Shown here: piece by piece, positions 38,847-39,062 of the stretch
Position numbering within the stretch: position 1 is the first letter of the stretch
Layout: each line of letters starts with the position of its first letter
Origin: Fusobacterium sp. IOR10
GTDB lineage: Bacteria; Fusobacteriota; Fusobacteriia; Fusobacteriales; Fusobacteriaceae
Assembly: GCF_010367435.1 (NCBI RefSeq)
Contig: NZ_WJWY01000014.1
Span: forward strand, 1 to 54,780
Length of the DNA: 54,780 nucleotides
Direction: 5' to 3'
Notes under the pieces: generated by a model
Database searches by the model: none
What the model was told of the DNA's origin: nothing
Seen by the model: the letters and a program-made list of their open reading frames with translations, nothing else
Program-made: the position numbers and the translations under genes

Positions 38847-38872
38847 AAAAAAACCTGTGAATGTATCACAGG
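38847..38872 (-). terminator. Attenuator terminator in the trpS leader
   Basis: Minus strand CCTGTGA (38872-38866), TACAT loop, TCACAGG (38860-38854), then seven T residues (38853-38847). It lies about 70 nt before the trpS start, downstream of the leader peptide. Confidence 0.88.
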
Positions 38873-38955
38873 AGACTTAAATGTCAAATACTTGTAATAC
38901 AAATTATTTTAGGGATAATTAAAATAGATTTGCATTAAAATTACAAATCTGTAAA

Positions 38956-39000
38956 CTAATTATTCCACCAACATAAAATTGTATTTGTCAAATTCTTCAT
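38956..39000 (-). CDS. trpS leader peptide with tandem Trp codons
   Basis: A 14-codon reading frame, MKNLTNTILCWWNN, in the trpS leader. The ribosome site AGGGG (39011-39007) is 6 nt from the ATG (39000). Codons 11 and 12 are TGG TGG (38970-38965). The stop TAG is at 38958-38956, and a hairpin AGATTTG/CAAATCT starts five bases later. The promoter is 34 nt upstream of the ATG and the terminator 84 nt downstream of the stop. Too short for ordinary gene calling; the tandem Trp codons in front of a Trp synthetase gene are unlikely by chance and indicate ribosome-mediated attenuation, as known for trp operons of Gram-negatives. No protein homology is expected. Confidence 0.8.
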   Translation of the reverse strand: MKNLTNTILCWWNN

Positions 39001-39033
39001 AATTAACCCCTAAAATTAGATTAAGATGGATAA

Positions 39034-39062
39034 AGTATAACATGATTTTTTTTTATAATCAA
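39034..39062 (-). promoter_or_regulatory. Promoter for the trpS leader
   Basis: Minus strand TTGATT (39062-39057), 17-bp spacer, TATACT (39039-39034). The start near 39027 gives a leader of about 250 nt before trpS. Confidence 0.8.

Follow-up and report, generated by a model that had tools for sequence, protein, structure and literature searches.

Leader-peptide attenuation proposed for trpS in Fusobacterium sp. IOR10, with one RNA scaffold found before several amino-acid genes

In Escherichia coli, the trp operon and pheST, the latter an aminoacyl-tRNA synthetase operon, are controlled by leader-peptide attenuators, and attenuators of this type are usually thought to originate anew in each operon. 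The T-box (RF00230) of Firmicutes works differently, as a single scaffold which serves many amino acids, often through control of a terminator, and which senses tRNA directly. Leader peptides have also been described outside the enteric bacteria. For example, a leader-peptide attenuator was predicted 5′ of the tryptophanyl-tRNA synthetase gene trpS in Streptomyces (PMC1262725), a leader ORF with a run of His codons lies 5′ of hisZ (hisZ / hisS*) in Bacilli, and thus outside Proteobacteria (PMC2965389), and uORFC-8-2 of the Rhodobacterales places tandem cognate codons 5′ of the aminoacyl-tRNA synthetase gene cysS (PMC8632094). Also, the trpB motif (Rfam RF04312; SRC-39-1, Narunsky et al., 2024), reported in Firmicutes and Fusobacteria 5′ of amino-acid genes, is considered a strong riboswitch candidate, and its authors left the alternative of an attenuator open (PMC11109978).

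The locus described here lies 5′ of trpS in Fusobacterium sp. IOR10, in a stretch of 54,780 nucleotides of contig NZ_WJWY01000014.1 that was analyzed as a whole (hereafter the window). It is very probably a ribosome-mediated transcription attenuator, member of a fusobacterial family with one scaffold and a variable codon box, for which we propose a relay mode of working. Like the E. coli trp and pheST attenuators, it combines tandem cognate codons with mutually exclusive antiterminator and terminator. Unlike them, the fusobacterial family uses a single scaffold for many amino acids, and an additional hairpin, A:B, with the pairing B:C, intervenes between the leader stop and the antiterminator strand. 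The Streptomyces attenuator is actinobacterial and classical by its description, and it is likened here by that description. Similarly, the hisZ leader of Bacilli resembles the fusobacterial His leaders in its leader ORF and is described for His only, while uORFC-8-2 serves a single amino acid in alphaproteobacteria and the fusobacterial family many. The T-box has no leader ORF, whereas the fusobacterial family reads leader codons; the two roles are comparable.

The trpS leader in the window and in related fusobacteria

On the minus strand, 5′ of trpS, the window contains a promoter-like site, a Shine-Dalgarno (SD) sequence, a short ORF, a post-stop hairpin and an intrinsic terminator. The features are the following:

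39062-39034, minus strand: sigma-70-like promoter TTGATT-17-TATACT, a consensus match only
Immediately 5′ of the leader ATG at 39000, minus strand: SD AGGGG
39000-38956, minus strand: leader ORF MKNLTNTILCWWNN*, 14 codons, read from the sequence, with orthologous and related Trp leaders in relatives
38970-38965, minus strand: tandem Trp codons (TGG TGG) of the leader ORF
38950-38942, minus strand: segment A (AGATTTGTA), 5′ arm of the post-stop hairpin (relay or pause), with A:B covariation
38934-38926, minus strand: segment B (TGCAAATCT), 3′ arm of the post-stop hairpin, with C as alternative partner
38937-38928 with 38904-38895, minus strand: B:C pairing in the window
38916-38906, minus strand: stretch complementary to the region of the leader SD (39016-39006), 11 bp, lineage-specific and outside the conserved switch
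38904-38893, minus strand: segment C (TTTGTATTACA), antiterminator strand, with B or D as partner
38901-38893 with 38870-38862, minus strand: C:D pairing in the window
38872-38862, minus strand: segment D (CCTGTGATACA), 5′ terminator arm and loop
38860-38847, minus strand: segment E, 3′ terminator arm and T7 tract
38872-38847, minus strand: terminator CCTGTGA-TACAT-TCACAGG followed by T7
38776-37787, minus strand: trpS, tryptophan--tRNA ligase, 329 aa, the controlled gene (TIGR00233, above cut-off)

The initial annotation of this DNA had listed a promoter, a ribosome site with a 14-codon Trp leader, a hairpin five bases past the leader stop and a 7-bp GC-rich terminator with T7. The leader ORF with its SD is present, and so is the hairpin, segment A beginning 5 nt past the stop codon. 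The promoter hexamers are present too, although matches of this type are as common in shuffled sequences (4 found, 2.7 expected). The terminator is the one terminator-like site of the whole leader region (0.1 expected in shuffles). Its stem and T7 tract were as announced, but G-C accounts for just 4 of the 7 pairs, so the stem is GC-rich only against the surrounding AT-rich DNA. The annotation had also noted that no T-box core was present, which agrees with our searches: RF00230 had no Rfam match at the window leader or in the window's genome, and no T-box was found beside trpS in 98 genomes of the class (93 with trpS). T-boxes exist in some fusobacteria at loci other than trpS (G006:C2:400391-400662, G044:C53:5272-5519 and weaker places). 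As regards the features expected of an attenuator, the window leader has a translatable ORF with an SD and a run of cognate codons, and a terminator stands between leader and gene. The conserved alternative structure excluding that terminator is C:D, which is conserved and covaries across leaders.

The DNA 5′ of trpS was read in 93 genomes, i.e., 92 relatives and the window. A leader ORF with tandem Trp codons was detected near the expected place at 10 of these 93 trpS loci, in the window, G006 and G002 (one genus), in G010, G052 and G053 (two further genera), and in four g19 genomes. A terminator lies between leader and trpS at all 10 loci, against 5 of the 83 others. G006 is the nearest relative (TrpS 96% identical), and its orthologous leader is MNKLVNTILCWWNN*. 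Leader and terminator are of a common type in six genomes from three genera, and of a diverged type in the fourth genus (g19). The g19 trpS leaders (L009, L010, L011, L018) encode a different peptide, VSKxFTWWW..., within a different RNA layout, and their SD pairs with the post-stop TATCTTTTTTAT; possibly, they represent an attenuator of trpS with a design of independent origin.

Relatives that keep the terminator and lack the Trp ORF had been named beforehand as evidence that would speak against attenuation. Such a state was found in part, as G003 and G005 retain the trpS terminator and have lost the leader ORF, while leader-bearing relatives keep both. Leader and switch are deleted, with promoter and terminator kept, at L003 and L006 (trpS of G003 and G005), at L012 (trpS of G064) and at L191 (a symporter gene of G028); the bare-terminator state of L012 may be an assembly effect. 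Apparently, loss of the leader with the terminator kept occurred in more than one event. In G054, the first tandem Trp codon is changed to TGA and the terminator stem is broken too, both being intact in its sisters. The pattern of G003 and G005 is also seen in G064 (trpS) and G028 (transporter), and G054 lost Trp codon and terminator stem together. We therefore read the terminator-only loci as cases in which the element has decayed in certain lineages; they do not speak against attenuation at loci that have the leader.

The same scaffold before other amino-acid genes

A covariance model (R1) was built from the trpS leaders and searched over the 98 genomes of the class. It matched 5′ of a second gene in G031, G027, G002, G003 and G005. 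This gene encodes a sodium:neurotransmitter-type symporter (PF00209; nearest solved structure 4us3) and its leader contains Trp codons; among the symporter orthologs, 13 Trp leaders of the switch type were found, together with one shorter variant (G022). A second covariance model (R2), followed by one restricted to the scaffold and lacking the codon box (R3), detected elements in 49 of the 98 genomes; the training sets of all three models include the window's leader. His runs precede hisZ as well as a polar amino-acid ABC transporter, Pro codons precede putP, Thr codons thrS, Tyr codons tyrS, and Met codons both metG and metN. DAHP synthase is preceded by mixed aromatic codons, and a TrpX-type binding protein by Trp codons. 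NCBIfam was used to check representative downstream proteins, gene labels coming mostly from N-terminal sequence. At metG, the covariance-model match fell on the terminator and the element sits just upstream. Weak first-pass matches of the RNA model (L182, L184, L186, L187) were read as chance.

The window's own genome carries at least six elements, before trpS, the symporter (SWCWC), DAHP synthase (SWYWC), an ABC transporter (HHHYR), putP (NPMVP) and hisZ (HIHHHH). In other genomes, two apparently identical putP leaders, L309 and L310 (G006:C5:30443+ and 174381-), face opposite ways on the same contig. At L339 and L353 (G035 and G036), the leader has a WQSH motif and precedes an ABC binding protein, that of L353 being a TrpX-type tryptophan binding protein. 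Also, the scaffold with leader MFKIKFTWQSWYFED* is found before an oligopeptide-type binding protein at L299 (G033:C8:2342-2416).

The codons of the leader follow the gene. For 41 leaders, the amino acid of the gene is known independently, and all 41 contain at least two cognate residues; in 20,000 shuffles of the gene labels over these leaders, 11.1 matched on average and 24 at most. When similar leaders are merged into distinct types, the match is 22/22 (shuffle maximum 15 in 100,000). A larger tally gives 67/67, and it includes ABC and symporter genes whose substrate was assigned partly from the leader; for this reason, we rely on the 41 leaders instead. Ribosome-mediated attenuation on tandem Trp codons, the central proposal of the initial annotation, is strongly supported in this comparison by the co-retention of Trp leader and terminator and by the family-wide codon match.

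A sequence-only profile trained without the trpS elements recovers those of G002, G052 and G053, misses the window, and does not raise G010 beyond noise. The window's leader is among the most diverged members, and its assignment to the family depends on its trpS relatives.

Alternative pairings and a proposed relay

When the strongest helices are listed, a five-segment switch is common to six trpS leaders, with A:B directly after the stop codon, followed by B:C, C:D and the terminator D:E. In four leaders, the spacer around C has more complementarity to B, and also to D, than its dinucleotide shuffles have (combined p ~1e-7). Changes on both sides of A:B and of B:C are found among the trpS leaders. 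Across 22 elements, 92% of the A:B cells are paired and two-sided changes are seen at 7 of the 11 pairs; none of 500 shuffles equals A:B in the share of paired cells and in covariation score. Alignment A4, which misplaces arm A of G000 and G006, does not enter the A:B counts. For B:C in the same 22 elements, 82% of the cells are paired, above all shuffles, and covariation is weaker, as 29 of 500 shuffles reach its score. The family elements have a conserved U-rich tract past A:B.

Segment C has the core TGTAT(C/T) in 19 of 19 Trp leaders, and it pairs with B and with the 5′ side of the terminator in nearly all of them (C:D of L054 needs a one-base bulge). Swapping the partners between leaders breaks both C:B (p=0.0005) and C:D (p=0.008). 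The metG leader departs from the Trp version jointly in B, C and D, and the pairing is preserved. At the level of the sequence, the leader, the terminator, the conserved and covarying A:B, B:C and C:D, and the codon-gene match are the established parts of the element.

The initial annotation had called for a comparison of trpS leaders and had put forward two candidate switches, a pairing over the leader SD and a pairing of TTTACAG with CTGTGA. The comparison bore out the tandem Trp codons, at 10 loci, but among competing pairings it is B:C and C:D that show conservation. Neither candidate is conserved in relatives as the switch. The second one is weak (TTACAG:CTGTGA, 6 bp, -4.1 kcal/mol) and absent among the relatives' strong helices.

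As to the working of the element, we infer stalling, a direction of response, a relay and a pause. When Trp is short, the ribosome would stall on the tandem Trp codons, too far 5′ to cover A. A:B would then form and leave C free to pair with D, the terminator would be blocked and trpS would be transcribed. When Trp is plentiful, the ribosome at the stop codon would mask A, and B, being free, would capture C; with C held by B, D would pair with E and transcription would terminate. When there is no translation, the leader codon region would pair with C in some members and restore termination. The U-rich tract past A:B may pause RNA polymerase and keep it in step with the ribosome. We assign B the part of a relay because C sits about 50 nt or more past the stop codon, beyond the reach of a terminating ribosome. 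The relay is less certain than attenuation itself, since folding separates the states of the window leader poorly and the pairing of leader with C is weak or absent in it.

Folding with the ribosome footprint masked was carried out on 19 leaders as an equilibrium calculation that ignores kinetics. The mean P(C:D) was 0.83 with the ribosome at the Trp codons versus 0.36-0.52 with the ribosome at the stop codon, a range that reflects the footprint chosen, and there were no reversals, in agreement with the proposed working over these leaders. In the window leader, C:D wins in both the stalled and the stop states unless upstream RNA is also taken as occupied. Without a ribosome, the leader region of many members is able to pair with C, and the His codon box does so, mostly with 11-13 bp; in the window this pairing is not clear, unlike in the His leaders.

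Classical four-segment attenuation, built of codon region:C, C:D and D:E with A:B as a pause hairpin and not a relay, is a possible reading to which we give clearly less weight. The pairing of the His codon box with C would fit it well, as would the conserved U-rich tract past A:B. However, leader:C is weak or absent in many members, the window included, whereas B:C is conserved and covarying, and a ribosome at the stop codon cannot reach C.

It is improbable that control is exerted mainly at initiation of leader translation, with the pairing of 39016-39006 and 38916-38906 silencing the leader in the window species. This is the SD pairing of the initial annotation, and it exists in the window (11 bp, -11.6 kcal/mol); G002 and the g19 trpS leaders have SD pairings too. 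Nevertheless, it is largely lost in the closest relative, G006, and the register differs among members. Strong in the window species and not in G006, the 11-bp pairing may add a control of leader translation.

Relation to the trpB motif and meaning for the family

RF04312 gave sub-threshold matches in 46 of the 98 class genomes, with a best score of 52 bits against a gathering cut-off of 59. The window trpS leader had no match to it up to E=5; other members of the family match, including two from the window's own genome (E 5e-6 and 0.004). Over three Bacillota plasmid records, the search returned two weak matches only, one of them T-box-like. The coordinates of RF04312, an independently made model, overlap many family elements, P1 falling at B:C, the second hairpin on the terminator D:E and the antiterminator strand on C. 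The layout of the motif, a hairpin with the antiterminator in its 3′ strand and then a terminator, corresponds at the shared loci to B:C followed by D:E. The model starts at about B, without leader ORF, codon box or arm A, whereas the family elements have all three. At 28 of the 28 loci long enough to read, a leader ORF with His, Pro or aromatic codons ends 13-39 nt 5′ of the model start.

We infer that the fusobacterial copies of RF04312 are the 3′ part of leader-peptide attenuators. One switch whose codons are swapped to match the gene suggests that the trpB motif is a ribosome-read attenuator rather than a riboswitch. On balance, we lean toward a modular class of attenuator RNA, in which one scaffold would be re-addressed by its leader codons only and would use a relay hairpin, the trpB motif being the leader-less version of this class.

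We consider it very improbable that the RNA is a riboswitch which binds the amino acid directly and that the leader ORFs are incidental. The classification of RF04312 as a strong riboswitch candidate (PMC11109978) and its matches to many elements would point that way, but one scaffold is found 5′ of genes for six amino acids or more, only the leader codon box is seen tracking the amino acid, every RF04312 locus that could be read has its leader ORF upstream, and an attenuator was not ruled out by the authors of the motif themselves (PMC11109978). Finally, short ORFs are common in AT-rich DNA and the leader is absent from some relatives, but a chance Trp-rich ORF beside a terminator of another transcript is a reading with practically no probability left, already refuted by the comparison through the conserved sequence and spacing of the leader, the terminator at 10/10 leader loci and the family-wide cognate codons.

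These leaders may have been described earlier in the literature. T-boxes are uncommon in this phylum, and many of its amino-acid regulons appear to share a single RNA scaffold, with the sensor changed via the codons. For the trpB motif, an orphan with > 900 representatives, the family offers a testable answer: the signal would be the position of the ribosome on an overlooked upstream ORF, so that no ligand need be sought. If this is true, the modular class would be the leader-peptide counterpart of the T-box.
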